From Bacillota bacterium (lineage in GTDB: Bacteria > Bacillota > Clostridia > Peptostreptococcales > Anaerovoracaceae): a DNA stretch of 50,099 nucleotides. Location of the stretch: positions 1 to 50,099 of the forward strand of contig JAFRKJ010000020.1 of NCBI GenBank assembly GCA_017431785.1, given 5' to 3'. Shown here piece after piece: positions 33,831-49,907 of the stretch; position 1 is the first letter of the stretch; the number at the start of each line of letters is the position of its first letter. The notes below the pieces were generated by a model. The model ran no database searches. It saw nothing but the letters and a program-made list of their open reading frames with translations, and had not been told where the DNA came from. Made by a program: the position numbers and the translations under genes.

Positions 33831-33866
33831 GATGCCCAAAGGGCAGTGAAAAGAGGAAGCCTTACT

Positions 33867-35570
33867 ATGAAGAAGATCGACTGGAAAATCAACTGGCGAA
33901 AATTAAAATATATTCCTAAATCAACAGGACTCAGAATTCTAATGCTGGTAACAGGATTGGCTGAAGTCCTGTTTCTGGTGTTATTACTAGTATTGAATGT
34001 TCTGCCTGCAGTGTACATTGTGCTGATCATTGCTGCGCTTCTGCTGATAGACTGTATTATGCTTCAGCTCATGAATGGAGTGAAATTCAGGCGGACGAAG
34101 ACACTGCTTGCGATGGTCATCGCAGCACTGATTCTGAATGTAACGCTCATCGGTGATGTATACGTCTACAGCACTTATGATACGCTGAAGAAAATCAGCG
34201 CATGGCATGATACCTGGGAGTATTACAATGTAGTGGCTCTGAAAGAAGGCAGCTACCAGAAAATCGGTGATGTCAAAGGCAAGACGGTGTATACCGTAGA
34301 TATGGAGTCAAAGCAGCTGACAGAAGCCAGCGAGAGACTGATCACCAAGGAAGAAGTAGACTTTGAAACAGTAAGCGGTCTGTTGAACCTGGGACAGAAA
34401 CTGGTGGATGATGGATCCAGTGTCAGTGAGAAAGACGTATCGGAACTTGCGTCTGCGACAGAAGAAGAAATCGCTCAGGCTGCCGATGAGTTGGCAGAGG
34501 AAGAGGCGAAAGCAAAGGACGAAGAGAAAAAAACTGATGGGGATGAGGAGAGCTCTGCAGCTGCTACTAACAATACGGCTGCGAACGTCAAGCTGAATGA
34601 CAATGTTATTCTGGTCAGCAATTCCGGTTACAAACTCATCAAATCCAACATCAAAGGCTTTAAGAAGAATACGGAAGTCATATACAAAATCAAAGTCAAG
34701 AAGAGAGGCGATGACACCAGCAAAGCAGTCGATGTGACGAAGGACTCCTTCAACGTGCTCATATCAGGGCTGGATTCCTGGGGCACGATCGATGAGGGTG
34801 GCCTGAGTGATGTTAACATGGTCATGACCGTCAATCCGCAGACCAGACAGGTGCTGCTCACATCGATTCCGCGTGACAGTTACATACCGCTTCATTCATT
34901 CGGGGCCAAGGACAAACTGACGCATTCAGGGATTTACGGAAGTGAAGAGACCAGGAAGACGCTGGAGGACTTCCTTGGGGTAGATATCAACTATACGATC
35001 AGAGTCAACTTCTCTATGCTCGTTGATCTGATCAATGCAATCGACGGCATTGATGTGTACTCGGATTATGCATTTGAATCAGCCATCACCGACTGGACCT
35101 ATGAGAAGGGATGGAATCACTGCACAGGCAAGAAGGCTCTGTACTTCGCCAGAGAGAGAAAGGCATTCAGCGACGGCGATATGCAGAGAAACAAGAACCA
35201 GCAGAAAGTTCTTGAAGCGACATTGAAGAAAGTCACTTCCAGCAAGGTCATCATGACCAGATATACGAAGATCCTGGATTCCGTCGAAGATGAGATGTGG
35301 ACGGATATGAGCGATAAGGATCTGAGAAGACTTGCGAAGATGCAGCTCGGCAATATGAGCAAAAAGTGGGAAGTCAAGAAAGTCAACATTGTCGGATCCA
35401 CAGGCGGGGCGCCTTGCTACAGTATGGGAAATCAGAACCTTTCCTGCGTTTTCCCTACAGAAGAATCAGTAGAAGAGGCAAAATCAGCAATTCATGATAT
35501 AATGTACCCGGTGGATAACACTAAGACGAACACCGAGGAAAGCAAAGCCAATGAAGAGGCTGATCAATAA
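33867..35570 (+). CDS. LCP family transferase with three N-terminal membrane helices and an inserted domain
   Basis: Protein of 567 residues. The start is the ATG at 33867, preceded by AAGAGGAAG; a GTG at 33846 lacks a site. Three membrane helices at about 21-47, 48-70 and 79-101. An extracellular region of about 190 residues (102-290), rich in Glu, Ala and Lys with a low-complexity acidic stretch near 200-235, precedes the LCP domain (about 294-500) with LISGLDSWG, SDVNMVMTVN, SIPRDSYI and the GWNHCTGKKALYFARERKAF block. It resembles CpsA-type LCP proteins. The end overlaps the next LCP gene by 20 bases. Confidence 0.9.
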   Translation: MKKIDWKINWRKLKYIPKSTGLRILMLVTGLAEVLFLVLLLVLNVLPAVYIVLIIAALLLIDCIMLQLMNGVKFRRTKTLLAMVIAALILNVTLIGDVYVYSTYDTLKKISAWHDTWEYYNVVALKEGSYQKIGDVKGKTVYTVDMESKQLTEASERLITKEEVDFETVSGLLNLGQKLVDDGSSVSEKDVSELASATEEEIAQAADELAEEEAKAKDEEKKTDGDEESSAAATNNTAANVKLNDNVILVSNSGYKLIKSNIKGFKKNTEVIYKIKVKKRGDDTSKAVDVTKDSFNVLISGLDSWGTIDEGGLSDVNMVMTVNPQTRQVLLTSIPRDSYIPLHSFGAKDKLTHSGIYGSEETRKTLEDFLGVDINYTIRVNFSMLVDLINAIDGIDVYSDYAFESAITDWTYEKGWNHCTGKKALYFARERKAFSDGDMQRNKNQQKVLEATLKKVTSSKVIMTRYTKILDSVEDEMWTDMSDKDLRRLAKMQLGNMSKKWEVKKVNIVGSTGGAPCYSMGNQNLSCVFPTEESVEEAKSAIHDIMYPVDNTKTNTEESKANEEADQ

Positions 35571-36681
35571 AATCAGACAGATCAATATTATTCCAAAATC
35601 TGCGGGATACTTAACAGCGCTGATCGTGTTGCTGCTTGCAGAAGCGCTGTTTCTATTTCTGCTGCTCGCGATCGATCTGCTGCCGGGCAGTTACCTGCTG
35701 CTCGTAGCGCTCGTTATGGCTGCGTTGGATTTTTCCGTCATGGTGCTTATGGCAGATAAAAGAGGGCGCAGGATCCGCAGAACGGGATTAGCACTGCTGA
35801 CGGCAGTTGTAGTTCTGATATGTGCCGGAAGCTTCTATCTGTTCAACACATACAGTGTGCTGGAGAGAATGATTGCAGGTGCAAAGGCGGCAGCACCGGG
35901 AGAACCGTTCAATCTGTACATTTCGGGCATTGATTCCAGAAATGGCATAGAGGAAACGGCAAGAAGCGATGTCAATATGATCGTCACAGTCAATCCTCAG
36001 AACAGGGAGATCCTGCTGACGTCCATGCCGCGGGATTCCTATGTGAACCTTCACATGAACGGGGAACTGGACAAGCTGACACACACGGGAATTTACGGAA
36101 TTGATGAAACGATCCAGACGGTCGAAGACTGGATGGGTATAGAGATAGATTACTATGCACGAGTAGACTTTCAGATGCTGGTCAATCTTGTGAACGCAAT
36201 TGGCGGCATAGATGTGTACTCCGATTACGCTTTCAAGTCAGCCGTAACAGACTGGACTTATGAAAAGGGATGGAACCACTGCACAGGCAAGAAGGCGCTT
36301 TACTTCGCCAGGGAGCGAAAAGCTTTCAAGGGAAAAGACCAGCAGAGAATCAAGAACCAGCAGATCGTGCTGAAGGCGATCTTTAAGAAAATCACCTCGA
36401 GCAAGACACTGCTCCTGAACTACGGCGATATACTGAAAGCTGTGGATGGTGAGATGCAGACCGATATGCCGATGAGCATGATTTCAGAGCTTGTCAGGAA
36501 TCAGCTTGAAACCGGCGACGAATGGACCATCAAGCGACAGACCGTCAAAGGAAAGATGGATCAGAAGGGCACCTGGAGTATGGGGCCGAACAGACCGCTC
36601 GATGTATGTATTATCAACGAAGAATCACTGAACAAGTGTGTAGACCGGATTAACGCCATGATGGCGGGGGATGAGAAGTGA
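35551..36681 (+). CDS. LCP family transferase, short paralogue of the preceding gene
   Basis: Protein of 376 residues. Same plan as the gene before it, with three membrane helices (about 18-44, 47-67, 78-98) and an LCP domain (about 120-320), but without the 190-residue insert. The LCP core shares long near-identical stretches with its neighbour, including the segment around GWNHCTGKKALYFARER, so the pair arose by tandem duplication. SMPRDSYV holds the key Arg-Asp. Its stop overlaps the GTG start of the ABC permease, tying wall attachment to export. Confidence 0.92.
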   Translation: MKRLINKIRQINIIPKSAGYLTALIVLLLAEALFLFLLLAIDLLPGSYLLLVALVMAALDFSVMVLMADKRGRRIRRTGLALLTAVVVLICAGSFYLFNTYSVLERMIAGAKAAAPGEPFNLYISGIDSRNGIEETARSDVNMIVTVNPQNREILLTSMPRDSYVNLHMNGELDKLTHTGIYGIDETIQTVEDWMGIEIDYYARVDFQMLVNLVNAIGGIDVYSDYAFKSAVTDWTYEKGWNHCTGKKALYFARERKAFKGKDQQRIKNQQIVLKAIFKKITSSKTLLLNYGDILKAVDGEMQTDMPMSMISELVRNQLETGDEWTIKRQTVKGKMDQKGTWSMGPNRPLDVCIINEESLNKCVDRINAMMAGDEK

Positions 36682-37484
36682 ACATAATAAAAGAAATTTT
36701 CAATGACCATAAAATGTACGGAAGTCAGATCCTGAAACTGGCCAAGGCGGATTTGGTGAAGACTTATCGAGGTTCCGCACTCGGTTGGGCGTGGGCCCTG
36801 GTCAAGCCTGTCATGACGATTTTCGTATTCTGGTTTGCTTTCACATACGGGCTGCGAATCAAACCGGGTGTTGATGATTTTCCGTTTTTCTTATGGCTGA
36901 TCGCAGGGTTTGTTCCATGGTTCTACATGTCCGGCATGATTTCGGGCGGAGCAGCCTGCATTCGGGTAAACAGCCATCTCGTGACGAAGATGCATTTCCC
37001 GGCTTCTGTAGTACCGACATTTACAAGTCTTTCGAGACTGTTTATCAACATCCTTTTGATTGTGATCATGTTGATTATATTTGTTGCGTTCGGGCACCCG
37101 CCAACAATATATTACCTGAATATTCCTGTATACCTTTTCATGATGTTCCTATGGTTTACCATTTGGGCGTTATTTGCCGGTATGTTGTCAGCGATGAGCA
37201 GAGACTTTCTCAATCTCATCAGAGCAATCCAGCAGCCTGTGTTCTGGTTGTCAGGGATTATGTACGATGTAAGTAAAATCGATGTGCAGTGGATTCAGTC
37301 CGCTTTAAGTTATAATCCGGTCACGATTATAGCAACAGGTTTCAGAAAAACTTTGATAGAACAGGAATGGTTCTTTGAAGATTTATACCTGATGAGATGC
37401 TATCTCATATGCTTAATAGCGATTTCTTTATTGGCCATATGGGCGTACAAGAAGACGTATAAAGATATTCCGGATGTACTATAA
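36678..37484 (+). CDS. Polysaccharide ABC transporter permease, TagG/Wzm type
   Basis: Protein of 268 residues with six hydrophobic segments, an ABC-2 type permease. The N-terminal amphipathic segment ADLVKTYRGSALGWAWALVKP is typical of exporters of teichoic acid, O-antigen and capsule. The start is a GTG that overlaps the stop of the preceding LCP gene. With the next gene it should export a lipid-linked polymer across the membrane. Which polymer cannot be read. Confidence 0.92.
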   Translation: MNIIKEIFNDHKMYGSQILKLAKADLVKTYRGSALGWAWALVKPVMTIFVFWFAFTYGLRIKPGVDDFPFFLWLIAGFVPWFYMSGMISGGAACIRVNSHLVTKMHFPASVVPTFTSLSRLFINILLIVIMLIIFVAFGHPPTIYYLNIPVYLFMMFLWFTIWALFAGMLSAMSRDFLNLIRAIQQPVFWLSGIMYDVSKIDVQWIQSALSYNPVTIIATGFRKTLIEQEWFFEDLYLMRCYLICLIAISLLAIWAYKKTYKDIPDVL

Positions 37485-37516
37485 TAACAACCTGCGTTTT
37501 GTAGGGAGGCAATAAT

Positions 37517-38248
37517 ATGGCTGAAGCTGAAACAGTAATCAAGTTTGATCATGTGGTCAAACGTTACAAACTATTCAAAAATGACAGAGAACGGTTTAAG
37601 AGTCTCTTCACGAAGAAAGCGAAATATAAGGAAAAACTGGCTACAAACGACCTGTCTTTTGAAATCAAGAGAGGCGAGGGCGTTGCTTTCATGGGCAGAA
37701 ACGGTGCCGGGAAATCCACGATCCTTAAGATGATCACAGGCGTCTGTTATCCGACATCGGGAGAGATCACGGTCAAAGGCAGGGTCAGCGCGCTGCTGGA
37801 GCTGTCCGCCGGATTCAACCCGCAGTTCACAGGCAGAGAAAATATCTATCTCAAGTGCAACATCATGGGAATGAATAACGACGAGATCAAAGCAATTGAA
37901 GACGACATCGTCGAGTTTGCGGAACTGGGAGAATATATCGACCAGCCGGTCAGAACGTATTCCAGCGGTATGAAGGCGCGTCTTGGTTTTGCAATCAATG
38001 TGAACATCGATCCGGAGATCATGATTGTCGATGAGGCCTTGAGCGTTGGAGATAAAAATTTCAGGAAGAAGTGCACAAACAAGATGCGGGACATCATGCA
38101 TCACGAGGATGTTACGCTCCTGTTCGTAACACATTCACTGGAGACGGCGAAAGAGTTCTGCACCAGAGGCATCGTGCTCGAAAAGGGCACCATGAAATTC
38201 GACGGACCGATTCAGGAAGCAATCAATTTCTACGAAGGCAAGTACTAG
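37517..38248 (+). CDS. Polysaccharide ABC transporter ATPase, TagH/Wzt type
   Basis: Protein of 243 residues. Walker A GRNGAGKST at 60-68, the signature YSSGMKARLGFA near 148 and Walker B IMIVDEALSVGD near 170, the last typical of TagH/Wzt. The protein ends soon after the nucleotide-binding domain, so it lacks the C-terminal substrate-binding extension of Wzt or the SH3-like tail of TagH. It partners the TagG-like permease just upstream. Confidence 0.94.
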   Translation: MAEAETVIKFDHVVKRYKLFKNDRERFKSLFTKKAKYKEKLATNDLSFEIKRGEGVAFMGRNGAGKSTILKMITGVCYPTSGEITVKGRVSALLELSAGFNPQFTGRENIYLKCNIMGMNNDEIKAIEDDIVEFAELGEYIDQPVRTYSSGMKARLGFAINVNIDPEIMIVDEALSVGDKNFRKKCTNKMRDIMHHEDVTLLFVTHSLETAKEFCTRGIVLEKGTMKFDGPIQEAINFYEGKY

Positions 38249-38264
38249 AAGGAATGAGCAGATC

Positions 38265-39401
38265 ATGGAATTCGCAGTAAGACTGATGAAGGGAGTGCTC
38301 GCAGCAATCTATGCAGTGATGAAGCTCTTCCCGGTCAAGAACAACAAGATCGTCTTCTGCAGCAGGCAGAGCAGTGATGTGCCTCTTGACTTCGCACTCA
38401 TACAGAAGGAGCTTGCGAGGAGGCAGGATGGACTTTGCTTCGTGAACATCTGCAACCGCATCGGGAAGGGAGCCGGAGCATACGCATCATTTGCCGCGGA
38501 CACCTTAAGGAGCATGAAGCATATGGCTACATCGAGAGTATGTGTGCTTGATGCCTACTGGCCGGCCGCGAGCATGCTCCATCATAAAGAAGAACTGACT
38601 ATCATACAAATCTGGCATGCCATCGGCAAGATAAAGAAATCGGGCATGATCACAGCCGGGGCGAAGACCGGCAGGGACCCGAAGATAGCAGCTCTTTTTA
38701 ATATGCATGAGAAGAATGACTACATCATCGCCGGCGCGAAAGCCTTTGATCAGTTTTACAGGGATTCTTTCGGCGATTATGATTATACGCTAATGAACTA
38801 CGGCCTTCCGAGAATCGACTATCTGATCGATAACGAAGAAGCTAACAGGGACCGGTTCTTCGCAGAGAACCCGGAGCTCAAAGGAAGAACGATCCTGCTC
38901 TACGCGCCGACTTTCCGGAGAGGGATGGAAGCCAGATGGCAGGATATCATAGAGGTCGTCGATCCTGATAAATACACCTTGATTATCAAGAATCATCCGA
39001 CGCAGAGAATCGAAGGGGAGAGACCGGCAGAACACGTCAGATACTTTGACGACTGGACAGCGGTCGATCTGCTGGCGGCCAGTGATTATGTGATTACGGA
39101 CTATTCAGCCATAGCCCTTGAAGCCGCTGTACTGAGAAAGAAGACGCTGTACTGGGTCTATGACTATGATGAATATGTGAGAGATAACGGACTGAATGTG
39201 GATATGTTCGAAAGCATGCCGGGGCTTGCTTTTCGGGACGCTGCCGAGATGATGGCGTTCATCGATCGGGGAGAGTATCCGATGGAACGTCTCGATGCAT
39301 ACCGTCAGAAGTATCTGCCGGAGGATCTTGGACACTCCGCAGAGAAGATTGCGCAGCTGATCCTGGATGAACTGGACAGGAAGTCTGTTAAAGGAAACTG
39401 A
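38265..39401 (+). CDS. CDP-glycerol glycerophosphotransferase-like protein (TagB/TagF family)
   Basis: Protein of 378 residues. Family motifs: IQIWHAIGKIKKSG near residue 112 (catalytic His), LLYAPTFRRG, IIKNHPTQR, and DYSAIALEAAVLRKKTLYWVYD near 280. TagB and TagF enzymes use CDP-glycerol to prime or extend poly(glycerol phosphate) teichoic acid; relatives use CDP-ribitol or other activated alditols. The length matches a single-domain TagB-like enzyme rather than the long TagF. Donor and acceptor here are unknown. Confidence 0.92.
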   Translation: MEFAVRLMKGVLAAIYAVMKLFPVKNNKIVFCSRQSSDVPLDFALIQKELARRQDGLCFVNICNRIGKGAGAYASFAADTLRSMKHMATSRVCVLDAYWPAASMLHHKEELTIIQIWHAIGKIKKSGMITAGAKTGRDPKIAALFNMHEKNDYIIAGAKAFDQFYRDSFGDYDYTLMNYGLPRIDYLIDNEEANRDRFFAENPELKGRTILLYAPTFRRGMEARWQDIIEVVDPDKYTLIIKNHPTQRIEGERPAEHVRYFDDWTAVDLLAASDYVITDYSAIALEAAVLRKKTLYWVYDYDEYVRDNGLNVDMFESMPGLAFRDAAEMMAFIDRGEYPMERLDAYRQKYLPEDLGHSAEKIAQLILDELDRKSVKGN

Positions 39402-39402
39402 T

Positions 39403-39987
39403 ATGAGATTTGTTATCATGGCCGACGGCCGGGGAACAAGATGGAATAACTACATGGGAGTGCCGAAGCATCTCGCTTTAGTGGACGGAGAGCCGGTCCT
39501 GGGCAGGACGGTCCGTCTGCTTGGTGAAGTCGCCCCCGGGAGCGAAGTGATCATCACATCCCATGATGAACGGTACGAGTTCGAAGGCGCCGTCAGACAC
39601 GAGCCGGAAAACAACGTGTATGAAATAGACAGATTCACGTCAGAACTGGTCTGTGATGACATGTGTTTCCTCTATGGAGATACAATCTACGACAAAGCAG
39701 TTCTCGCCGACATCGCAGCATCACAGCCGGAGGATATTCTCTTTTACGGCAACAGCAAATCTGTTGTGGCTGTGAGAATCGGGGATGCGGACCTGTTCAG
39801 AAAGCACTTTGACAGAGTGAGAGGACTCTATCTGGACGGCAAAATCGAAAAATGCAAAGGCTGGCAGATCTACCAGTCGGTCACCGGGCAGGATCTCAGA
39901 GAGAAGCCGGTCATAGGTGATAAGTTCGTTGTCGTAGATGAACAAACTACTGATATCAACACACCGGAGGAATACAGAAACATATGA
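39403..39987 (+). CDS. NTP transferase domain protein (sugar or alditol nucleotidyltransferase)
   Basis: Protein of 194 residues with the start at the ATG at 39403, preceded by AAAGGA; the longer frame from 39367 lies inside the upstream gene. The N-terminal MADGRGTRWNNYMGVPKHL is the nucleotide-binding signature of the sugar nucleotidyltransferase fold, and FLYGDTIYD supplies a metal-binding Asp. It probably makes an NDP- or CDP-activated precursor for the polymer, for instance for the TagB-like or LicD-like enzymes; the substrate is not readable. It overlaps the next gene by ATGA. Confidence 0.82.
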   Translation: MRFVIMADGRGTRWNNYMGVPKHLALVDGEPVLGRTVRLLGEVAPGSEVIITSHDERYEFEGAVRHEPENNVYEIDRFTSELVCDDMCFLYGDTIYDKAVLADIAASQPEDILFYGNSKSVVAVRIGDADLFRKHFDRVRGLYLDGKIEKCKGWQIYQSVTGQDLREKPVIGDKFVVVDEQTTDINTPEEYRNI

Positions 39988-41027
39988 TGAATTTCTGCAG
40001 AAAAGCGTTAAAGAAGATCAAACTATTCGTGCTCTACTGGACACGGATCGTCTTTGTGCGCAACAATTTCAAGGTTCCATTCCTCACGAAGGTAAGAGCG
40101 AACATAAACGGATATCTGGGTGACCAGTACATCCTCTATGATTTCAAACACACAGATAAGAACGAGTACCTTTCGGAGTTCGACTGGTACAGATCGAGAT
40201 ATATCAACGAACCTTTTGATTTCGCATTCAACAACAAGGTGGTTTGCGCGGAGATGCTCAAGCATCACATCAGGTTCTCACAGAACTACTTCATCATCAA
40301 TAAGGGCGTCCTCCATGATTTTGAGAACGGTCCGATCAGTTATGACAGAGTGTTCGATAAGATCAGAGAAGAAGGAAAACTCGTCATCAAGCCGTTTGCT
40401 ATGGGCAAAGGCAACGGCGTCCATCTGCTCAGCTTCGAGGACGGCAAGTACTTCATGGACATGCAGGAGAAGACGAGAGAGGAGCTGGAGGCATATCTTA
40501 AGAAGCTCAACATGTACGTTTTCTGCGAGTTCATTCACCAGCACCCGTATTCGGATAAACTCTATGATAAGACGACGAATACGATCAGATTCATCACCCT
40601 CAGGGACATTGACACCCATGAGATGAAGGTGTTTCGCGCGGTGCAGCGGATCGGACGCAAGGAGACCATCCCAGTCGATAATGGAAGCAAGGGAGGCCTT
40701 GTGGCGAACATCGATCTGGAAACAGGCATGCTCAGCGAAGCCAGATGCCTCAAGGAACTTGGTTCATGGGAAGTGCATCCTGATTCAGGCAATCCAATCA
40801 AGGGCGTCGTTATTCCTGACTGGGACGGCATCAAGAAGGAGATCCTGGATGTATGCAAGAAAATCCCATACATGGATTTCATGGCCTGGGATCTGCTCAT
40901 CACCGAAGAGGGGCCTTGCGTCATAGAAATCAACACATCATCAGGAATCAACATCATACAGCTGTGGGGAGGACAGAAGCAGGGTGAACTCGGCGACTTC
41001 TTCCGCCATTACAATGTAATCAAATAG
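39984..41027 (+). CDS. Sugar-transfer-associated ATP-grasp protein
   Basis: Protein of 347 residues of the family called sugar-transfer associated ATP-grasp (PF14397 type). A basic amphipathic N-terminus is followed by a lead-in segment (about 40-110) and the ATP-grasp core: LVIKPFAMGKGNGVHLL near 135, NTIRFITLRD near 195, NGSKGGLVANIDLETG near 232 and FMAWDLLITEEGPCVIEIN near 297 with the metal-binding Glu and Asn. ATP-grasp enzymes join a carboxylate to an amine or similar acceptor. Members occur in surface glycan clusters but their reaction is not established. Confidence 0.88.
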   Translation: MMNFCRKALKKIKLFVLYWTRIVFVRNNFKVPFLTKVRANINGYLGDQYILYDFKHTDKNEYLSEFDWYRSRYINEPFDFAFNNKVVCAEMLKHHIRFSQNYFIINKGVLHDFENGPISYDRVFDKIREEGKLVIKPFAMGKGNGVHLLSFEDGKYFMDMQEKTREELEAYLKKLNMYVFCEFIHQHPYSDKLYDKTTNTIRFITLRDIDTHEMKVFRAVQRIGRKETIPVDNGSKGGLVANIDLETGMLSEARCLKELGSWEVHPDSGNPIKGVVIPDWDGIKKEILDVCKKIPYMDFMAWDLLITEEGPCVIEINTSSGINIIQLWGGQKQGELGDFFRHYNVIK

Positions 41028-41036
41028 GAATATCCA

Positions 41037-42896
41037 ATGAACGCAATCAGCAAAGTTTTAATGTACATATACATTTTTATTCCGTCCACACGAGGGGTCA
41101 ACACCCTGTCTGCCAAGGCGTGGTATAAAAAAATGCAGCGGAATAAAAAGAAGGATAAGGCCCATAGCCTGCCGCAGAAGAAACGGGCATACAGAGCGGG
41201 CTACATGCCGGAGCATGCAGAAAAGTTCGGGATCACCGATTCAGAAAACAGGATCTCAGAACGTGACTATTTCTATCTGCAGCCGCTGAACGGCATCTAC
41301 AGCAAGTGGCTGATGACCAATGAGATCGCCAGGACGATCTATTATCCATTTGAGGAAATGATCGATTTGGATGCAGATACAGAGGGGAAGAAACTGCTGC
41401 GCTTGCTTATCATCAATGACAAAGGATACTATCCGGAGATCACAGAAGCATACTATTACTGGAAAGAGAACGGCAAGATAGTCAACGAAACGGTCGACAG
41501 AAACAGTATCGAAGGCTGGGCGCACATCGAGGAAAACATCAAAAAGATGGCGCGTTTCACGCCGCAGATTGAGTTTTTCGCAGTCGATCTGCTCGATGGG
41601 AAGATCGTCAACTTTACAAACCAGCCGGAGTATCCGCAGGACTTCCTCTACAGCGATGAAACCGTTCAGTTCCTGAAGGAAAAGGCCCGTGAGAGGGTCG
41701 CCATGGCGAAGGACAAGGGCCGCAGAGTCAGGAACGCAAAGCAGAGAATCAAGTGGAAATCCCGTCAGCTCTTCACCACTGCATTTTTCCCAAAGGATAT
41801 GATGTATTATCTGGGACCGAGATGGATCAAGGAAGTCGTCACAGATTTCTTCAGCGACAGCGATGCAGATTTCAAAACGAAGATGTGGGCTTACCGGCAT
41901 GGATTCCTGTCCTACAGAATCAATCAGTATGGAATCACAGAGGAGAATTATCCGGAGCACATCTCTGATTTTGAGTACAAGTGGCTCAGGCATATCAACA
42001 GTGATTACAGGATTCTGTTCGCGGACAAGATCACCATCAAGTACATCGTCAACAAGTTCAAGGAATGTTTTCCCGAGTACTATTATCATATCAAGACGAA
42101 GAACGGTGAAAACATCATCATCCCGATGATGGACTGCCCGGAGAAGTACGGAAACACCTACGAGGACATTCTGGCTCTGGCGAAGGAAAAGGGCGTACTG
42201 GCCATGAAACCGGAGGAAGGATCCCATGGAAACGGTTTCTTCAAGCTGTCCTATGAAGATGGTCAGTTCTATCTGAATTTCGACAAGGCGTCCGAAGAAG
42301 AAGTCCTGAGCATTCTGAAGGATCCAGACAACCAGTATCTAGTTACGGAGTACATCAAGAACAATGAGCAGTTCAAAGCGATTTATCCGGGTGCAGTCAA
42401 TACGATCAGAATGATCGTGTTCAAAGAAGACGGCGTCAATCCGCAGATCGGTAACGTCTACATGCGGTTCGGATCGAAAGCGACCGGAGCAGTCGACAAT
42501 ATGGGAGCCGGAGGAATCTTCGTTCAGGTGGACAGAGAAACAGGCTGGTATCACGATGCGAAGATCATCACGAGCAATTCCATCGAGCCATGTCCGAACC
42601 ACCCTGATACGGGTGTGCTGATGGAAGGATATATTCCTCACTACCAGCAGGTCAAGGAGACAATACTGGACGTTGCGAGAAGCATCCCTGAGATGGAATA
42701 CTTCGGATTTGACGTGGCTGTTACAGAAGACGGCATCAAATTCCCTGAAATAAACAGATTCCCGGACTATCCGAGAATCGAGAAACTCAGTCCGGAAACC
42801 ATGCATTACTTATTAAAGAAACTGGATGAGAAAAAGCGCAGATGCGGCTATGACAAGAAGCCTTGCAGGAAACTGGTGCATCTGCCGAAGCGCTGA
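41037..42896 (+). CDS. ATP-grasp protein with a degenerate second ATP-grasp unit at the N-terminus
   Basis: Protein of 619 residues. The C-terminal half (about 285-595) is a full sugar-transfer-associated ATP-grasp: KPEEGSHGNGFFKL at 391-404, NTIRMIVFKEDG at 455-466, MGAGGIFVQVD near 489-499, and FGFDVAVTEDGIKFPEIN at 556-573. The N-terminal half (51-200) repeats the lead-in and the outer strands of the same fold (AYRAGY...GIT..., LLRLLIINDKG, TPQIEFFAVDLLDGK) but lacks the ATP-binding middle. A basic helical linker (215-250) joins them. It starts 10 bases after the previous ATP-grasp gene and is the last rightward gene before a convergent pair. Confidence 0.87.
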   Translation: MNAISKVLMYIYIFIPSTRGVNTLSAKAWYKKMQRNKKKDKAHSLPQKKRAYRAGYMPEHAEKFGITDSENRISERDYFYLQPLNGIYSKWLMTNEIARTIYYPFEEMIDLDADTEGKKLLRLLIINDKGYYPEITEAYYYWKENGKIVNETVDRNSIEGWAHIEENIKKMARFTPQIEFFAVDLLDGKIVNFTNQPEYPQDFLYSDETVQFLKEKARERVAMAKDKGRRVRNAKQRIKWKSRQLFTTAFFPKDMMYYLGPRWIKEVVTDFFSDSDADFKTKMWAYRHGFLSYRINQYGITEENYPEHISDFEYKWLRHINSDYRILFADKITIKYIVNKFKECFPEYYYHIKTKNGENIIIPMMDCPEKYGNTYEDILALAKEKGVLAMKPEEGSHGNGFFKLSYEDGQFYLNFDKASEEEVLSILKDPDNQYLVTEYIKNNEQFKAIYPGAVNTIRMIVFKEDGVNPQIGNVYMRFGSKATGAVDNMGAGGIFVQVDRETGWYHDAKIITSNSIEPCPNHPDTGVLMEGYIPHYQQVKETILDVARSIPEMEYFGFDVAVTEDGIKFPEINRFPDYPRIEKLSPETMHYLLKKLDEKKRRCGYDKKPCRKLVHLPKR

Positions 42897-42920
42897 TAAA
42901 AAAGGGCTGCCAAGCAGCCC
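42897..42920 (-). terminator. Intrinsic terminator of the leftward ATP-grasp gene
   Basis: GGGCTGC pairs with GCAGCCC (42904-42910 with 42914-42920, three-base loop). Read leftward the stem is followed by six T residues, then ATC. It therefore serves the minus-strand gene that ends at 42929. On the plus strand no T run follows it. Confidence 0.85.
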
Positions 42921-42928
42921 GATCTGAA

Positions 42929-44431
42929 TCAGTATAAATCGCCTGAGAAACCGACAAGGTCGATCAGGCTTTTTTTTGCACCCAGATTTCTCGTGCTCTG
43001 CTGTCCGAGGAACTGGGTGATTGAATTACCTTCTACGATGATCCATTCATTATCTTCTGTATAGGTGAGGTCCCATCCGATGAATCTGAAGCCCGGAATC
43101 ATAGAAGAGATCTCACGTCCGAGGGCCAACGCCTCGTCCCAGGCAGGAAGCTGATATCCTTCGATTTTGATTCCGGTGTAAGGATGGGTATCGTATCTCC
43201 TGCCTTTTTCATCGATACCATTGCTCTCAAAGAACCCTTTCTCGTCATTGACCGCAGCGAAGATACCGCCTGCGCCGCCGTTGTCGACAAAGGAGCCCTT
43301 CTGTCCGATCTTCATGAAGCATTTGTGCACATGAGTCTCTTTGCCATCGAAATAGGTGATCAAACGTACCGTATTTACAGAATCCGGATTCAGCGCTTTG
43401 ATGACCGGATGTGCCTTGATCAGACCTTCGCAGATAAAACCGTCCGGACATTCGTCGAGAAGCTTTTTGAACAGCTGCAGCAGGTCTCCTTCAGCAGTGT
43501 ACGGTACAACGCCTCTGCCCATGGAATCGAAGTCGAGTTTGCGCACAAACTCCTCGTTTCCATCGCAGAATTCCTTGAACTTCCCGTAATCCGCACTGGA
43601 TGATATGTGGATCATATCCCTGCCGTAGTAAGGTTCCAGATACTGATAAGTCACATATTTATTGTCCAGGTTGTCAGCCTGTGTCATGTCGTTGACAGAG
43701 TTCAGCACGACGGCACGTTCCTCTTCATTGATGAATTCACGGCGCTCCGGAAGTGTTTTGCTGACAAAGTCAAACATTATGTATTCGGTGTTGTTGAACT
43801 TCAGGAGAGAACGCACAGATTCCATGTCGACAGCTGTTTTTCTGAGACGCTCTTTATCCTCTGTGATTCCGGGATAAGCAGGCTCCAGTATTTCTGCGCT
43901 TGCCTCAACGAGGCTGTCAGGAACGACCTGCTCCATAATGCGCTCATATTCCTGCATTTGTTCAGCGACATCATCGTAGGACATGGTGCCGGCATCGATC
44001 TTCTTGAAGTCATCCCGCAGGCTGTTGATCAGCTTCTGCCGCCGTCCCAGAAGACGTACGAATTCTTCCGCTTCCTCATCGCTCATCTTGTAGATCTCAT
44101 ATCTGTCGTAGATGAAGGAGATGACCTTGTAGACACCCAGTTCGTTGAGCGCGCGCATTTTGTCCAGGATTTCCTCTTTGGACATTCCGGTCTGGCTCAT
44201 AATGTTCTGAAGAGCGCGTTCCCTGCGGTTGTGATTGCCGTCGGTCTTCTTCGACTCGCGGGCCTGTTGTGTCATAGACATCTTCCAGAATTCTCTCTGG
44301 TAGTATTCACGGTAGGTTACGCCGAATTTCTCATTCGTCTTTTTCATCTTGGCTGCCGCTGTGAGCATGCTTTCGCCGGATGCTTTGGCAACCAGACGTA
44401 CATATTTCATTTTTTTCGGGCCGATTCCCAT
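42929..44431 (-). CDS. ATP-grasp protein on the opposite strand, with a long helical N-terminus
   Basis: Protein of 500 residues. The C-terminal half (about 265-490) is a sugar-transfer-associated ATP-grasp: FVRKLDFDSMGRGV, NTVRLITYFDGKETHV, NGGAGGIFAAVND and FIGWDLTYTEDNEWIIVEGN. The first 250 residues are charged and helical with no recognised domain; one segment (MSKEEILDKMRALNELGVYK) resembles a small helical lead-in. It is the only minus-strand gene in the polymer locus and has its own promoter and AGAGGAA site. Its 3' coding end contains a plus-strand terminator. Confidence 0.86.
   Translation of the reverse strand: MGIGPKKMKYVRLVAKASGESMLTAAAKMKKTNEKFGVTYREYYQREFWKMSMTQQARESKKTDGNHNRRERALQNIMSQTGMSKEEILDKMRALNELGVYKVISFIYDRYEIYKMSDEEAEEFVRLLGRRQKLINSLRDDFKKIDAGTMSYDDVAEQMQEYERIMEQVVPDSLVEASAEILEPAYPGITEDKERLRKTAVDMESVRSLLKFNNTEYIMFDFVSKTLPERREFINEEERAVVLNSVNDMTQADNLDNKYVTYQYLEPYYGRDMIHISSSADYGKFKEFCDGNEEFVRKLDFDSMGRGVVPYTAEGDLLQLFKKLLDECPDGFICEGLIKAHPVIKALNPDSVNTVRLITYFDGKETHVHKCFMKIGQKGSFVDNGGAGGIFAAVNDEKGFFESNGIDEKGRRYDTHPYTGIKIEGYQLPAWDEALALGREISSMIPGFRFIGWDLTYTEDNEWIIVEGNSITQFLGQQSTRNLGAKKSLIDLVGFSGDLY
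42941..42977 (+). terminator. Plus-strand intrinsic terminator inside the convergent gene
   Basis: GCCTGA (42941-42946) pairs with TCAGGC (42964-42969), with an inner CGAC/GTCG stem, followed at once by eight T residues (42970-42977). This is a clear rightward terminator for the transcription unit ending at 42896, but it lies within the last codons of the leftward gene. Confidence 0.75.
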
Positions 44432-44475
44432 AACACGATTCCTCTCTGTGCTGTACCCTGTAATGATCTATGAAA

Positions 44476-44484
44476 AGTATATCA
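44476..44484 (-). promoter_or_regulatory. Extended -10 promoter for the leftward ATP-grasp gene
   Basis: On the minus strand TGATATACT is an extended -10 (TG, one base, TATACT). It lies about 45 bases before the start at 44431. No clear -35. Confidence 0.5.
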
Positions 44485-44499
44485 TGATTGCGCCTGTGA

Positions 44500-44508
44500 T
44501 GGTATAAT
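44500..44508 (+). promoter_or_regulatory. Extended -10 promoter for the LicD-like gene
   Basis: TGGTATAAT, identical to the element before queH. It lies about 50 bases before the chosen LicD start and back to back with the leftward promoter; the -10 boxes are 21 bases apart, so the two promoters probably share regulation. Confidence 0.65.
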
Positions 44509-44557
44509 AAACTGAATTGGAATACGCATGAGACAGACGATAAAGAGGAAGGTCAGA

Positions 44558-46309
44558 ATGACTGATTTACAGGAAAGAATGCTCTTGCTGCTCAAAGAAA
44601 TTGACGAGATCTGCAGGAAACATGAAATAGAGTATTATCTCTTTGCAGGAACGGCACTGGGAGCGGCCAGACACAAGGGTTTTATCCCATGGGATGATGA
44701 TACGGATATCATCATGGATCTGGAGAACTACGAACGTTTTCTGAGCATTATACCAAGTGAGCTCAAAGAGAACCGGGCAATCGACTGGCTGACAGATGAC
44801 AGTGAGTATCTCTTTACGTATGCCAGATATGTGGACACAAGCTCGACAGCTTTGCAGAGGCACACAGTATTCGGCGGCTGCAGGCCCGGCGTGAAGGTGG
44901 ATATTTTCTGCGTCATCCCAACATTTTCGGATGAGAAACTGCGGGAGAAGCACAGGATGGATGTCCTTGGCTTCGCAGAAGTTATGTGTACGACCGGAAG
45001 GATGGGCATGTACAGACCGGAGGGCTTCTATGCAGTCTATGAACGAGAGAAGAAAAAAATGCAGAAGTCTGGCAGAAAGAAATACATTGAGGACAATCTG
45101 CATGAGCTGATGCACCGGGCGGATGGAGAGAATGAGAAATGCCTCCTGTTCTCCGGCATGATGTCAAATACGAAGACCTACGACAAATGCATTTTTGACA
45201 AATCGGTCTATGTACCTTTTGAAGACACGATGCTGCCGATATCAGAGTACAACGACCTGTTCACAACCCAGCACATTGCGGAGAGCTGGCAGGATCTGCC
45301 GCCTCACGTGGAAAAGCCAAGGCATCTTCTCTTCGTCGATCTGGACAGGCCTTATGGGGAATACATGAAGCAGCTTTTCGCGAAGACTGACATCAGAAAG
45401 GTGAAGGAAGCTTCAATAAAACGCAAGGAAAACAATCTCTACGAGAGAGATGAATTCCGGGATGTCCTGACCAACAACCAGAAGATCAGAAATCTGGCCA
45501 CGGAGCTGGATATCAGAAAGCGCTTTGCGGAATATGATCCGTCACTGCCGCCGGCAGAACGGGAGAAGATCCTCGACCGCTATATCGAAGGACAGATGGA
45601 CCGTCTGAACAAGACCTTCGGCCTCAGTGTCGACGCTGGAGAAGACGTGCTTAGGGCAGCGTTGGAAACACTTCTGGAGCTGGGCAGATATTACGAAGCA
45701 AAATCGATCATCCGGACTTGCATAGCAGCAGGGAGCGTGGATGCGGACGATGCCTATGTGAAGAGCGTCCAGGAGAGGGCGGATCTTTGCGCACGCATCA
45801 TGGAAACAGCATTCCGCTACGGCGACAGAGAAGAAACGCAGAGGATCCTTGGAAGCGACGAAGCGAAGTCCATCGAAGGCACTGCACCATATGAAGCGGC
45901 CCGGTGCTGGATCGAACAGGGCGAAAACGGCAAAGGCTACACAGCCTATCAGAAAGCATTCGAAGATGTGAAAAATGGTTTTGTTCTTCAGGAGATGATA
46001 GAGGACGGTCTTCCGATCGATTTCATCTTTGAAGTGGATGATAAAGAAAAGCCGAAACCTGACAAAAAGATGCTTCGGACGACAGTAAACGCACTGATGA
46101 CTGGCAAGGAAGCGAAGAAACCTGCCATCTGGAGCGACGCAGTCACGCAAACCGAATTTCTGGCAGAAGCCGCAGAGCGCGGACTGCTTTCAAAGGAGAA
46201 CAAAAAACGATATAAGAAATATCGTATGTGGAGAAAGATGAAGAAACAGAAGGCTGAGGATGTATTTGATGCATATGCAAAGACATTCACACAGCTGGAA
46301 CACATTTAA
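44558..46309 (+). CDS. LicD family phosphotransferase with a long C-terminal extension
   Basis: Protein of 583 residues; the start is set at 44558 because AAGAGGAAGG precedes it, while the in-frame ATG at 44528 has no site. The LicD domain (about 1-260) shows YYLFAGTALGAARHKGFIPWDDDTDI, the nucleotidyltransferase-fold catalytic block with its Asp residues, and VDIFCVIP. LicD enzymes transfer phosphocholine or phospho-alditols onto teichoic acids or glycans. The remaining 300 residues are helical and look like tetratricopeptide-type repeats with a very basic end, roughly doubling the usual length. It begins a new rightward unit with the Mur-ligase gene 11 bases on. Confidence 0.88.
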   Translation: MTDLQERMLLLLKEIDEICRKHEIEYYLFAGTALGAARHKGFIPWDDDTDIIMDLENYERFLSIIPSELKENRAIDWLTDDSEYLFTYARYVDTSSTALQRHTVFGGCRPGVKVDIFCVIPTFSDEKLREKHRMDVLGFAEVMCTTGRMGMYRPEGFYAVYEREKKKMQKSGRKKYIEDNLHELMHRADGENEKCLLFSGMMSNTKTYDKCIFDKSVYVPFEDTMLPISEYNDLFTTQHIAESWQDLPPHVEKPRHLLFVDLDRPYGEYMKQLFAKTDIRKVKEASIKRKENNLYERDEFRDVLTNNQKIRNLATELDIRKRFAEYDPSLPPAEREKILDRYIEGQMDRLNKTFGLSVDAGEDVLRAALETLLELGRYYEAKSIIRTCIAAGSVDADDAYVKSVQERADLCARIMETAFRYGDREETQRILGSDEAKSIEGTAPYEAARCWIEQGENGKGYTAYQKAFEDVKNGFVLQEMIEDGLPIDFIFEVDDKEKPKPDKKMLRTTVNALMTGKEAKKPAIWSDAVTQTEFLAEAAERGLLSKENKKRYKKYRMWRKMKKQKAEDVFDAYAKTFTQLEHI

Positions 46310-46320
46310 TTGAGAGAGCC

Positions 46321-48327
46321 ATGAACGCAGTAAAAAAGAAATTAAGATCGGTTTACAAGAGAAATATCGACAAGGATGAAACGGTCAAGGATGTCGTTAA
46401 GAGAAAACTCGGAACCAGCGGCTATGTAAAACAGAAACTCACAGGCGAAAGAAGCACGCAGAACAAAATCGAGGAAACCGTTGGAAGCCTTTGCAGCAAG
46501 CTCGGCGTGGAAATTCCGGAAGGGTTTCAGGGAGCAGATGCGGACACTCCGGTCAGCAGTGTCTATTATGCGGTGTCGCTGCTCGAGGATAACGGCGCGC
46601 TGTTTCTTTCCAACAGGAGAACTGAGTTTTATGCTTCGATCCTGAAACAGGCGATGCGCAAGAACGTCAAGGTTGTCTTTGCGGACCCTGAGTTTTTCGC
46701 GAAAACAGATATCGACCCATCGCCATACCCAATCATCTTCGTCGAAAACGGCATGCAGAAATTCAGGGATTACTATGCCCCATACCGCAAGGCGTACAAG
46801 GGTACGGTCATCGGTATTACAGGATCAGTCGGAAAGACGACGACAAAGGGCTATGTGGACGCTGTTGTCAGACAGAAGTATCCGACGTTTACGAACAGCT
46901 TCAATTACAATTCCAGTCATAACATCGCTGCCAATATATTGAACAAAGCGACACCGGGCTATAAAGCGTTCATACAGGAAGTCGGCGGCGGAAGCATCGC
47001 TTCTGTGAAGAACTCATCCGAAATACTGAAGCCGGACATCGCGATCATCACAAACGTCAAGCCGCATCATCTGAATAATTACAAGACCATCGAAAATGTA
47101 TTCGATGACAAAATCTATCTGGTGAGGAACATGATGCCGGGCGGCACAGCGGTCGTAAACTTCGACGATGAACGTCTGGCAACCTTCGATTATGATTGCA
47201 AAGTGGTTTCCTTTGGCATTGAAACAGAGCGTGACGTTGACTACAGAGCGGTGAACATCGAGCAGAAGGGCAGCATCCTCAGCATGGATGTGATTCACGG
47301 CGGCAAAACCACAAGCGTGAAATCCACCATTACAGGAAAGCACAACGCATACAACATTCTTGCTGCTTTTGCAGTCGGCGGAATCATGCATATCAAGGAA
47401 GAGGATATCGTGAACGGAATCCTCAGATACAGTGCTTCCGGCACAAGACAGAATGTGGTCCAGTACGGCGAAAATGCGCTGTTCATGGACTGTTACAATG
47501 TGTGCAACGAAACTATTATCAAATCCGTTCAGATCCTTGAAGAAATGGAAGTGCCTGACGGCGGAAGACGGATCGCCATCGTCGGCGGTGAAAACAAACT
47601 GGGAGACGCAAGAGTTGAAGTTACGGAAGAACTCGGCAGGGAACTGGCAAAGTCAAAGGTCGACCGGATCGTCTGCTTTGGCAGCGACAAAACAGAAGAA
47701 AAAGATCTGAACCGGTTCGGGGATCCGAAGACGATCTACGATACGCTGCTCGCCAATGGGTTTGAAAACACTGATCTGGTGCTGGGGTTTGACAATCTCG
47801 TCGACTACATGAAGACCAAGATCGAACCGAACGACGCTGTTCTGTTCAAATGCATCGTCTACCTGAACATGGCGGCGGCCATCGATAAGGTGTTCGGGAC
47901 AGGGTACTGTCTCAGCCAAAAGGAATCGCGCAGAGGCCGCAAAAGCAAGACAATCGGCGGGTTCACAGGCATCGTGATCAAAGATATGAACGAAGCCTAC
48001 ATCACAGATGTAAGCGATAAGCTGCTGTCTTCCAAGACGGTAAAGATTCCGGATAAATTCGACGGATACCCGGTATTCGCCCTCAAAAAAGGGTTGTTCG
48101 CTTATTCCGATGTTGAGAAAGTGGACCTGGGCAATACCGTCCAGCACATCGGTATCGGCGCATTCCGCGGCTGTAAGAAACTCAAAGAAGTTAAAATACC
48201 AGATTCTGTCAAATATATCCGTTCCGGAGCATTCAAAGAATGCAAAAGGCTCAAATCGGTCAAGCTTGGAGAGGGAATCATCGAAGTAGATAAAGAGGCT
48301 TTTGAACCTTGGACGGAAGTCAATTAG
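46321..48327 (+). CDS. MurF-like Mur ligase fused to a BspA-type leucine-rich repeat tail
   Basis: Protein of 668 residues. A basic N-terminus (1-60) and a MurF-like N domain (about 60-155) come first. The Mur ligase ATP-binding domain has GITGSVGKTTTKG at 165-177, NSSHNIAANIL where MurF has its NNEIG-type motif, EVGGGSIASVKN and ITNVKPHHLNNYKT. The C-terminal Mur domain follows (about 360-535; GGENKLGDAR). From about 573 to 668 comes a BspA-like leucine-rich repeat stretch (AFRGCKKLKEVKIPDSV and similar). MurF adds D-Ala-D-Ala to the peptidoglycan precursor; this divergent, fused version in a glycan locus suggests a different acceptor. No terminator is seen after it. Confidence 0.85.
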   Translation: MNAVKKKLRSVYKRNIDKDETVKDVVKRKLGTSGYVKQKLTGERSTQNKIEETVGSLCSKLGVEIPEGFQGADADTPVSSVYYAVSLLEDNGALFLSNRRTEFYASILKQAMRKNVKVVFADPEFFAKTDIDPSPYPIIFVENGMQKFRDYYAPYRKAYKGTVIGITGSVGKTTTKGYVDAVVRQKYPTFTNSFNYNSSHNIAANILNKATPGYKAFIQEVGGGSIASVKNSSEILKPDIAIITNVKPHHLNNYKTIENVFDDKIYLVRNMMPGGTAVVNFDDERLATFDYDCKVVSFGIETERDVDYRAVNIEQKGSILSMDVIHGGKTTSVKSTITGKHNAYNILAAFAVGGIMHIKEEDIVNGILRYSASGTRQNVVQYGENALFMDCYNVCNETIIKSVQILEEMEVPDGGRRIAIVGGENKLGDARVEVTEELGRELAKSKVDRIVCFGSDKTEEKDLNRFGDPKTIYDTLLANGFENTDLVLGFDNLVDYMKTKIEPNDAVLFKCIVYLNMAAAIDKVFGTGYCLSQKESRRGRKSKTIGGFTGIVIKDMNEAYITDVSDKLLSSKTVKIPDKFDGYPVFALKKGLFAYSDVEKVDLGNTVQHIGIGAFRGCKKLKEVKIPDSVKYIRSGAFKECKRLKSVKLGEGIIEVDKEAFEPWTEVN

Positions 48328-48401: not shown

Positions 48402-49907
48402 ATGAAAAAGAGATTATCACTTTTAGTTGCCTTGGTTATGGCATTTACGATTTTCTGCATCCCAGGGTCAAGCGCAGCTTTTGCTGAGGGGGAAGAAAAT
48501 GCAACTGAATTCACTTCTCAGGACAATGGACAGCCTGAGGGTGAAGTCAATGCTTTGGAAGGTGAAGAGTACACTGTAACCTTCTATGATGGATATGGAA
48601 CTGCAACCAAATACGGGAATATAATTGGTGAACCGCAGACGGTTCTGTCAGGTAAAGCGGCAACTGCTCCTGAAAACCCGACAAGAGATGGATACATTTT
48701 CAATGGTTGGGATCAGGCTTTCAGCAACGTCACTAGCGATTTGCATATTAGAGCGCTGTGGAGAACGCCGAAAAAGTATACAATAACGTTCAATGCGAAC
48801 GGAGGAACAAATGCACCTGCACCGCAGACGAAAATCGAAGGTCAAGAGTTTAGTTTTGCAAATGTGGGGAAACCAACGAGAACAAACTATACGTTCACGG
48901 AATGGAATACGGCAAAAGACGGATCACGTTATTCCTATTCTGCAACGAAACCATATAAGGCGAATGCCAATGTCACGCTCTATGCACAGTGGAAACTGAC
49001 TTCACCGATCGTTGGAAAGATCGTTGCAAATTCGACACCGTATACGACAGAAAAAAACAGCATTACTGTTAACTGGAAGATTCTAAGCACGAACAAGCTT
49101 TATACTGTTGATAAAGTGGTATTCTATCTTAACGGCAAGGTCAAGAAGACTGTAGAAACAAGCGCAAGGTCCGGAAGCTATACCTTCACAGGACTCAGCG
49201 ATGGTACATACTACTCGTTCGCAGTGAAACCTTATTACAAGGGAAAGACACTCACTGCATGGAAGGGCAAGGCTCTGACGAAGGCTCCTGTACAGAACGG
49301 TGCTTATAAACCTGGCAAGTATGAATACTACTACGTCAATGGCGTCAAACAGAGAAATAAGACCATCCAGTTCAAGGATACTCGTTTTGGTACCAACAAG
49401 TACAGCCTGAATCATTATTATGATGCAAGCGGCGTATTCCGCGGACGTACCAAGTACATGTACAATAAGATCAAGAACATGTCCAGCAAGAAGTATCTGA
49501 TCTGCATCGACAGAACCAATAATGTTATGTGCGTTTATATCGGCGGAAAAGGTAAGTGGCGTCCATACAAGTACTGGAGCTGCGTAACAGGAAGACTCAA
49601 GAAGTCAGACTATCATCCAACACCGCTCGGTACATACACGATCAAATCCAGAAAGCTGACGTTCAGTGGATACGGAATCCCTGAGAAGATGAAGAACCGC
49701 TACTCAGTCTGGTACTGTTCAAGATTTGTAGGCTCCGTATTTATTCACTCACAGTTGTATCACTATGGCCAGAAGTCCGGTTTCATCCCAGGCGGCGGAA
49801 CGATGGGAAGAAACGCTTCACACGGCTGTGTAAGACTGAATATCAATTACGCACACTGGGTTTATAAGAACTGTGCTAAAGGAACAAAAGTAGTTGTTAT
49901 CAAATAA
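48402..49907 (+). CDS. Secreted L,D-transpeptidase with InlB-type repeats
   Basis: Protein of 501 residues. Signal peptide at 1-28 (cleavage near AFAEG). Two Listeria-Bacteroides (InlB B) repeats at about 55-120 and 126-195, each ending in a W motif such as LYAQW. A fibronectin-like domain at about 200-295. The YkuD L,D-transpeptidase domain is C-terminal (about 360-501) with HPTPLGTYTI, FIHSQLY and the catalytic SHGCVRL, Cys476. It forms 3-3 cross-links in peptidoglycan or attaches proteins. Base composition is more AT-rich than the genes before it, and it has its own promoter and terminator. Confidence 0.93.
   Translation: MKKRLSLLVALVMAFTIFCIPGSSAAFAEGEENATEFTSQDNGQPEGEVNALEGEEYTVTFYDGYGTATKYGNIIGEPQTVLSGKAATAPENPTRDGYIFNGWDQAFSNVTSDLHIRALWRTPKKYTITFNANGGTNAPAPQTKIEGQEFSFANVGKPTRTNYTFTEWNTAKDGSRYSYSATKPYKANANVTLYAQWKLTSPIVGKIVANSTPYTTEKNSITVNWKILSTNKLYTVDKVVFYLNGKVKKTVETSARSGSYTFTGLSDGTYYSFAVKPYYKGKTLTAWKGKALTKAPVQNGAYKPGKYEYYYVNGVKQRNKTIQFKDTRFGTNKYSLNHYYDASGVFRGRTKYMYNKIKNMSSKKYLICIDRTNNVMCVYIGGKGKWRPYKYWSCVTGRLKKSDYHPTPLGTYTIKSRKLTFSGYGIPEKMKNRYSVWYCSRFVGSVFIHSQLYHYGQKSGFIPGGGTMGRNASHGCVRLNINYAHWVYKNCAKGTKVVVIK

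Follow-up and report, generated by a model that had tools for sequence, protein, structure and literature searches.

Wall teichoic acids of Bacillus subtilis and Staphylococcus aureus are produced by a pathway of TagO, TagA, TagB, TagF and TagGH together with LCP proteins, the Bacillus teichuronopeptide involves the ATP-grasp gene TupA, and cyanophycin synthetase couples an ATP-grasp module to a Mur-ligase module to produce a poly-amino-acid. Here, we analyze a surface-polymer locus on contig JAFRKJ010000020.1 of a Bacillota bacterium of the family Anaerovoracaceae (assembly GCA_017431785.1), the entire 50,099 bases of which constitute our window (contig C65 of genome G000). The locus combines TagB-, TagGH- and LCP-type genes and a dedicated nucleotidyltransferase with three genes for ATP-grasp proteins (AG1, AG2 and AG3), a LicD gene, and a MurF-like ligase fused to LRR_5 repeats (Mur-LRR). 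We think it somewhat probable that this locus makes a teichoic-acid-type wall glycopolymer in which amide bonds would be formed in the cytoplasm before export.

ATP-grasp amide formation in surface polymer synthesis is already known. In the portions of the sources consulted, the TupA-like ATP-grasp domain of Cj1438 from Campylobacter jejuni amidates glucuronic acid in the growing capsule chain (PMC11800379), teichuronopeptides are mentioned together with linked peptide ligases (PMC4431377), and an AslA-type ATP-grasp D-Asp ligase forms amides on peptidoglycan side chains during Gram-positive wall synthesis (PMC4155827). A preliminary description of this locus had stated that known teichoic acid loci use neither ATP-grasp nor Mur ligases; for surface polymers in general, Cj1438 and the teichuronopeptide ligases are precedents of the amide idea. 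What appears to be new, according to the literature searched, is the combination of ATPgrasp_ST genes and a Mur-type ligase in a teichoic-type locus, as our search returned no description of either in a teichoic acid locus, with most of the papers represented only by their list entries. A 2009 paper on amidoligases reportedly deals with ATP-grasp genes that sit in gene clusters for surface polymers, and part of this idea may have been predicted earlier.

The locus resembles each of these systems in part. It shares TagB-like, TagGH-like and LCP genes with the wall teichoic acid pathway but differs in having ATP-grasp genes in its core; moreover, among 12 AG1-bearing genomes that we chose for a survey, TagA/TarA (PF03808) was found in none at E 0.001, and the TagB-like gene of the locus is the sole PF04464 gene in six, the other six (including G000, on contig C80) carrying additional ones. 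Like the proteins studied here, Cj1438 is an ATP-grasp protein of surface polymer synthesis, and the consulted part of its description has the growing chain amidated ahead of the addition of the next sugar (PMC11800379); Cj1438, however, is of the TupA-like family and acts on glucuronic acid, whereas AG1-3 belong to ATPgrasp_ST, neighbor TagB, TagGH and LCP genes, and occur mostly in genomes where no uronic-acid dehydrogenase was found. The teichuronopeptide is likewise a Gram-positive wall polymer of glycan and peptide, although it is a polyglucuronate by the title of a cited reference and its ATP-grasp gene is of the TupA family, and no TupA family appears among the Pfam matches of AG1-3 at E ≤ 0.1. 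Cyanophycin synthetase is among the structural neighbors of both the AG1 and Mur-LRR models, but it is a single polypeptide, whereas here the ATP-grasp and Mur genes are separate, sugar-polymer export genes accompany them, and the Mur ligase carries LRR_5 repeats. AslA, also an ATP-grasp enzyme of wall synthesis, is likened here by its description, which in the portion consulted places its action on the peptidoglycan stem peptide.

The gene arrangement is more than chance, as gene order is kept in one relative and nearly kept in another, and AG1 recurs with its neighbors across the family. All nine genes at 36678-48327 that the preliminary description had named (a TagGH-like exporter, a TagB/TagF-like transferase, a nucleotidyltransferase, three ATP-grasp proteins, LicD and a MurF-like fusion) are present, and their family assignments hold in Pfam and NCBIfam profile searches. 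Of the 247 family genomes, 24 carry an AG1 orthologue at E < 1e-90 (30 at 1e-20), with 51-79% identity excluding the window itself; we rejected the idea of a housekeeping ATP-grasp gene on this distribution. A class-wide search passed E 1e-70 in 4 of 391 genomes, namely G000 and G119 of the same family, G474 (245 bits, 33% identity), and G595, the sole strong match outside the family (635 bits). The ATPgrasp_ST family as a whole is commoner than AG1 (72 of 247 family genomes, against none in a control set of 14 at E 1e-12).

We tallied the genes within 12 kb of AG1 at 26 loci outside the window (23 of the 24 AG1 genomes, leaving out G000, plus G033, G006 and G595), using identity and length thresholds chosen after the annotations had been seen rather than blind. 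The nucleotidyltransferase is present in 24 of the 26, the TagB-like gene in 22, LCP in 18, and TagG and TagH in 17 each; AG2 follows with 15 and the threonyl-tRNA synthetase (ThrRS) gene thrS with 12, and Mur-LRR (7), an L,D-transpeptidase (LDT; 3), AG3 (2) and LicD (2) are scarcer. Contig ends interrupt the loci around G091, G284, G225, G249 and G595; at these thresholds TagGH was not found near AG1 in the unbroken loci of G163, G162, G280 and G090, nor was TagB in G163 or TagB and the nucleotidyltransferase in G162. Weaker AG3 and LicD homologues lie more than 12 kb from AG1 in G255 and G008. On this tally, the TagB-like gene, AG1, the nucleotidyltransferase, TagGH and LCP form a conserved core, accompanied in about half of the loci by AG2 and the adjoining thrS, and AG3, LicD and Mur-LRR form a variable add-on. 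The earlier label "accessory" therefore fits only the add-on, and the co-location of homologues that had been proposed as a check holds for the core. G033 carries the complete set in the order of the window and G006 the same set with Mur-LRR and LicD swapped, at 54-96% identity (LDT lower, at 47%; LCP ligase 1 at 89% in G033 and 83% in G006); G008, of the same genus, carries a variant. Three relatives are metagenome-assembled genomes, one from goat cecum, and the gene set appears to be common to some gut-associated bacteria known from metagenomes.

AG1-3 match ATPgrasp_ST (PF14397) at 122-129 bits against a gathering cut-off of 31.4, and alignments (of eight homologues in the case of AG3) show the complete conserved active-site pattern in AG1, in the C-terminal domain of AG2, and in AG3. 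The predicted structure of AG1 has the amide ligases RimK, ArgX and LysX as its closest neighbors, tied with pyruvate carboxylase, and its sequence finds a single weak match among PDB sequences (E 0.019). From its model, AG1 is predicted to be an amide ligase. These neighbors also bear on an alternative in which the ATP-grasp proteins are kinases or phosphotransferases making the phosphorylated precursor for the nucleotidyltransferase, rather than ligases acting on the polymer: the nucleotidyltransferase gene lies near AG1 in 24 of the 26 loci, the two sharing 4 bases in the window, Vip1 ranks 47th among the AG1 neighbors, and other kinases also occur among ATP-grasp-fold enzymes. We consider this alternative unlikely, as the best structural neighbors are in the majority peptide or amide ligases and the top NCBIfam match of AG1-3, although far under its cut-off, is TIGR02291, "alpha-L-glutamate ligase-like". 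In the alignment of AG2, 12 of 15 sequences are longer (733-979 residues) with a fuller N-terminal part. Separately, G595 encodes a 1076-residue protein uniting PGA_cap, LRR_5 and ATPgrasp_ST (L092:5676-8906), directly upstream of its TagB-AG1-nucleotidyltransferase genes.

The exporter and transferase assignments point to teichoic acid enzymes at scores below curated cut-offs: the top NCBIfam matches of the TagH-like ATPase are teichoic acid export ATPases (1.7e-75 and 1.9e-65), and that of the TagB-like protein is TarB (6.2e-34). The nucleotidyltransferase, whose start at 39403 is common to its orthologues, is probably a cytidylyltransferase, as suggested by searching PDB with a profile of 18 orthologues, in which CTP:inositol-1-phosphate cytidylyltransferase ranked first (E 0.0009), followed by a deoxyheptose-pathway protein (E 0.0013) and LicC (E 0.036). 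In the 12-genome survey, TagD (CDP-glycerol synthase, TIGR01518) exceeded its cut-off in G000, G033, G006 and G280. DltA, for D-alanylation, passed its cut-off in none of the 12, with full-length near-misses in G133, G119 and G280 (482-540 bits) and best scores of at most 128 bits in the other nine.

The preliminary description had called the LicD protein double-length, which fits its size only. We rejected a doubled LicD because Pfam finds one LicD domain (residues 29-237), the remainder having weak, sub-cut-off matches; the acidic PWDDD stretch is invariant across six homologues. Elsewhere, a cytidylyltransferase-oxidoreductase fusion has LicD and a pyridoxal-phosphate aminotransferase nearby (L102:14053-15372, L109:4511-5854 and L125:8708-10009), and these fusions look like a route to an amino compound activated with cytidine diphosphate (CDP).

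Mur-LRR shares with MurF a predicted three-domain fold and its catalytic and ATP-binding residues, as T167, G168, S169, G171, K172, T173, E220, K264, N342, R376, D390, Y392, N393 and K510 are kept in at least seven of eight Mur-LRR sequences. Unlike MurF, it has V in place of A after D-x-Y-N (8 of 8), appended LRR_5 repeats, and neither of the domain-1 motifs DSR and D[GA]H, which we take to mark the UDP-MurNAc side. Both motifs occur in all 12 canonical MurF proteins and neither in any of the eight Mur-LRR proteins, a comparison of sequences we selected and, since domain 1 aligns poorly, repeated without alignment. With the catalytic residues kept and these motifs missing, the acceptor is probably not that of MurF; the missing motifs led us to reject a duplicate of the housekeeping MurF, and Mur-LRR seems to be a Mur-ligase branch departed from peptidoglycan precursor synthesis. 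It could instead be a peptidoglycan-side enzyme, acting on a modified stem peptide or lipid II and merely located among wall genes, which we regard as doubtful given the missing motifs, the canonical MurF encoded separately in the same genome (G000:C7), and the fusions and clustering of Mur ligases with PGA_cap and ATPgrasp_ST. Among 30 places with open frames of at least 600 residues, hand-picked from among the matches listed, at least 11 lie near an ATPgrasp_ST gene; those 11 fall in six genomes and are not independent, so that the probability simulated for them carries no true significance, the set includes a PGA_cap fusion without LRR_5 (G008:C9:54200) and was not confirmed for LRR_5 place by place, and one eligible place was left out (G090:C4:11492, 746 residues, with an ATPgrasp_ST gene about 5 kb away). 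In G008, PGA_cap is fused to the middle and C-terminal domains of a Mur ligase (L016:12195-15473), flanked by genes for an ATPgrasp_ST protein and a transglutaminase-like protein. Several Mur-LRR homologues (L073:5414-8371, L096:7546-10599, L077:1969-4728 and L016:801-3773) are 919-1017 residues long, with an N-terminal part that exceeds that of the window protein by some 240-300 residues, the extra stretch being without a Pfam match.

From this gene content, core linkage, predicted folds and intact residues, we infer the substrates, order of steps and product of a candidate pathway. The nucleotidyltransferase would activate a small phosphorylated unit to a CDP or other nucleoside diphosphate derivative, which the TagB-like enzyme would move onto a lipid-linked acceptor. 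AG1, assisted at about half of the loci by AG2, would spend ATP on linking a carboxylate, such as that of an amino acid, to an amine of the unit or of the acceptor; TagGH would then export the product, and LCP proteins would attach it to peptidoglycan. In the lineage of the window, AG3, LicD and the MurF-like ligase may add further units, an amino acid or a short peptide. The product would be a phosphate-linked glycan carrying amino acids. The premise of the preliminary description that these enzyme families form amide-type bonds finds support in the AG1 model, the AG1-3 active sites and the Mur catalytic residues, and its wider interpretation is supported in part.

The nature of the acceptor separates this amide-forming pathway from one in which AG1-3 accompany a teichoic-type core and amidate a sugar acid within the chain, for example a uronic acid, in the manner of the TupA-like domain on the capsule chain in the consulted part of the Cj1438 work (PMC11800379). 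Genes for UDP-sugar dehydrogenases, which such a pathway could draw on in G000 and G133 (on contigs other than that of the locus), were not found in the other 10 of the 12 surveyed genomes, including G033, G006 and G008. This scarcity of uronic acid enzymes points indirectly to an amine acceptor and, together with the missing TupA match, makes uronic amidation very unlikely in our judgment; aminotransferase genes beside LicD cassettes and dTDP-sugar-type genes could supply the amine. Against an amine acceptor, the window's own genome is one of the two with a UDP-sugar dehydrogenase. Separately, the preliminary description's claim is weakened for the add-on, whose three genes seldom lie within 12 kb of AG1. 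A bolder version would be a distinct class of Gram-positive wall polymer, a "peptido-teichoic polymer" whose repeating unit would depend on ATP-grasp amide ligases as obligate enzymes and not as decorators; a MurF-derived ligase would add a peptide stem, and the adjacent L,D-transpeptidase could cross-link that stem to peptidoglycan. We hold this to be quite unlikely; if true, it would provide a second, peptide-mediated anchoring of wall polymers besides LCP phosphodiesters.

The unit is wider than the 36678-48327 first assigned to it, with two LCP genes directly upstream (33846-36681) and the L,D-transpeptidase downstream (48402-49907). As the window is a whole contig, the locus is truncated at its right end, where the boundary is the assembly limit.

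Table 1. Genes of the locus, with positions in the window and supporting profile matches.
Feature	Position	Strand	Profile match
LCP (LytR-CpsA-Psr) ligase 1, predicted to anchor the polymer to the wall	33846..35570	+	PF03816, E 1.1e-33
LCP ligase 2	35551..36681	+	PF03816, E 4.5e-38
TagG-like ABC exporter permease	36678..37484	+	PF01061, E 2.5e-15
TagH-like ABC exporter ATPase, 243 residues	37517..38248	+	PF00005, E 7.5e-22
TagB/TarB-like CDP-polyol phosphotransferase (Glyphos_transf)	38265..39401	+	PF04464, E 3.7e-45
Dedicated nucleotidyltransferase	39403..39987	+	Weak NTP_transf_3/IspD; best Pfam E 1.5e-5, below curated cut-off
AG1, ATPgrasp_ST protein of the core, predicted amide ligase	39984..41027	+	PF14397, E 2e-37
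AG2, C-terminal ATPgrasp_ST domain, degenerate shortened N-terminal repeat	41037..42896	+	PF14397, E 3e-35, residues 318-578
AG3, accessory ATPgrasp_ST protein	42929..44431	-	PF14397, E 1.4e-36
LicD-family phosphotransferase	44528..46309	+	PF04991, E 1.1e-30, residues 29-237
Mur-LRR, MurF-like three-domain ligase with LRR_5 repeats	46321..48327	+	Best Pfam E 2.9e-37
L,D-transpeptidase (LDT) with Flg_new repeats, possible partner	48402..49907	+	PF03734, E 2.3e-19

In G033, an LDT-like gene also lies downstream of Mur-LRR, and the locus extends further through DegT, a TagD-like gene, two YfhO genes, a protein bearing two Glyphos_transf stretches, a nucleotidyltransferase and dehydratase that we name RmlA/RmlB type, a GT2, and two ATP-grasp proteins whose C-terminal parts weakly match L-amino-acid ligases; contig C80 of G000 is collinear with this continuation, including the TagD-like gene. 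Neither a tRNA nor an Rfam family reaching its gathering score turned up in the window. ThrRS (32085-33830), which adjoins the locus, has 581 residues, as in several relatives, and no TGS domain by Pfam, a domain that ThrRS usually carries. Further upstream lie a Mur-ligase-family gene (24936-26354), a GH25 lysozyme gene (27769-29460), a third LCP gene (29507-30997) and a Ddl gene (31022-32077), which make up a broader wall gene region.

If correct, our reading would describe wall-polymer machinery of uncultured gut-associated bacteria and predict that amide chemistry takes place in a class of polymers usually viewed in terms of phosphodiesters and D-alanyl esters. The core of TagB-like enzyme, AG1, nucleotidyltransferase and TagGH is small enough for testing in a laboratory host. 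The ATPgrasp_ST family, whose name already ties it to sugar transfer, would gain a specific gene partnership. The presence of amide-forming types of enzyme among the wall-polymer genes, joined in the window by a reworked peptidoglycan enzyme, is a hint that such polymers bear amino acids or peptides.

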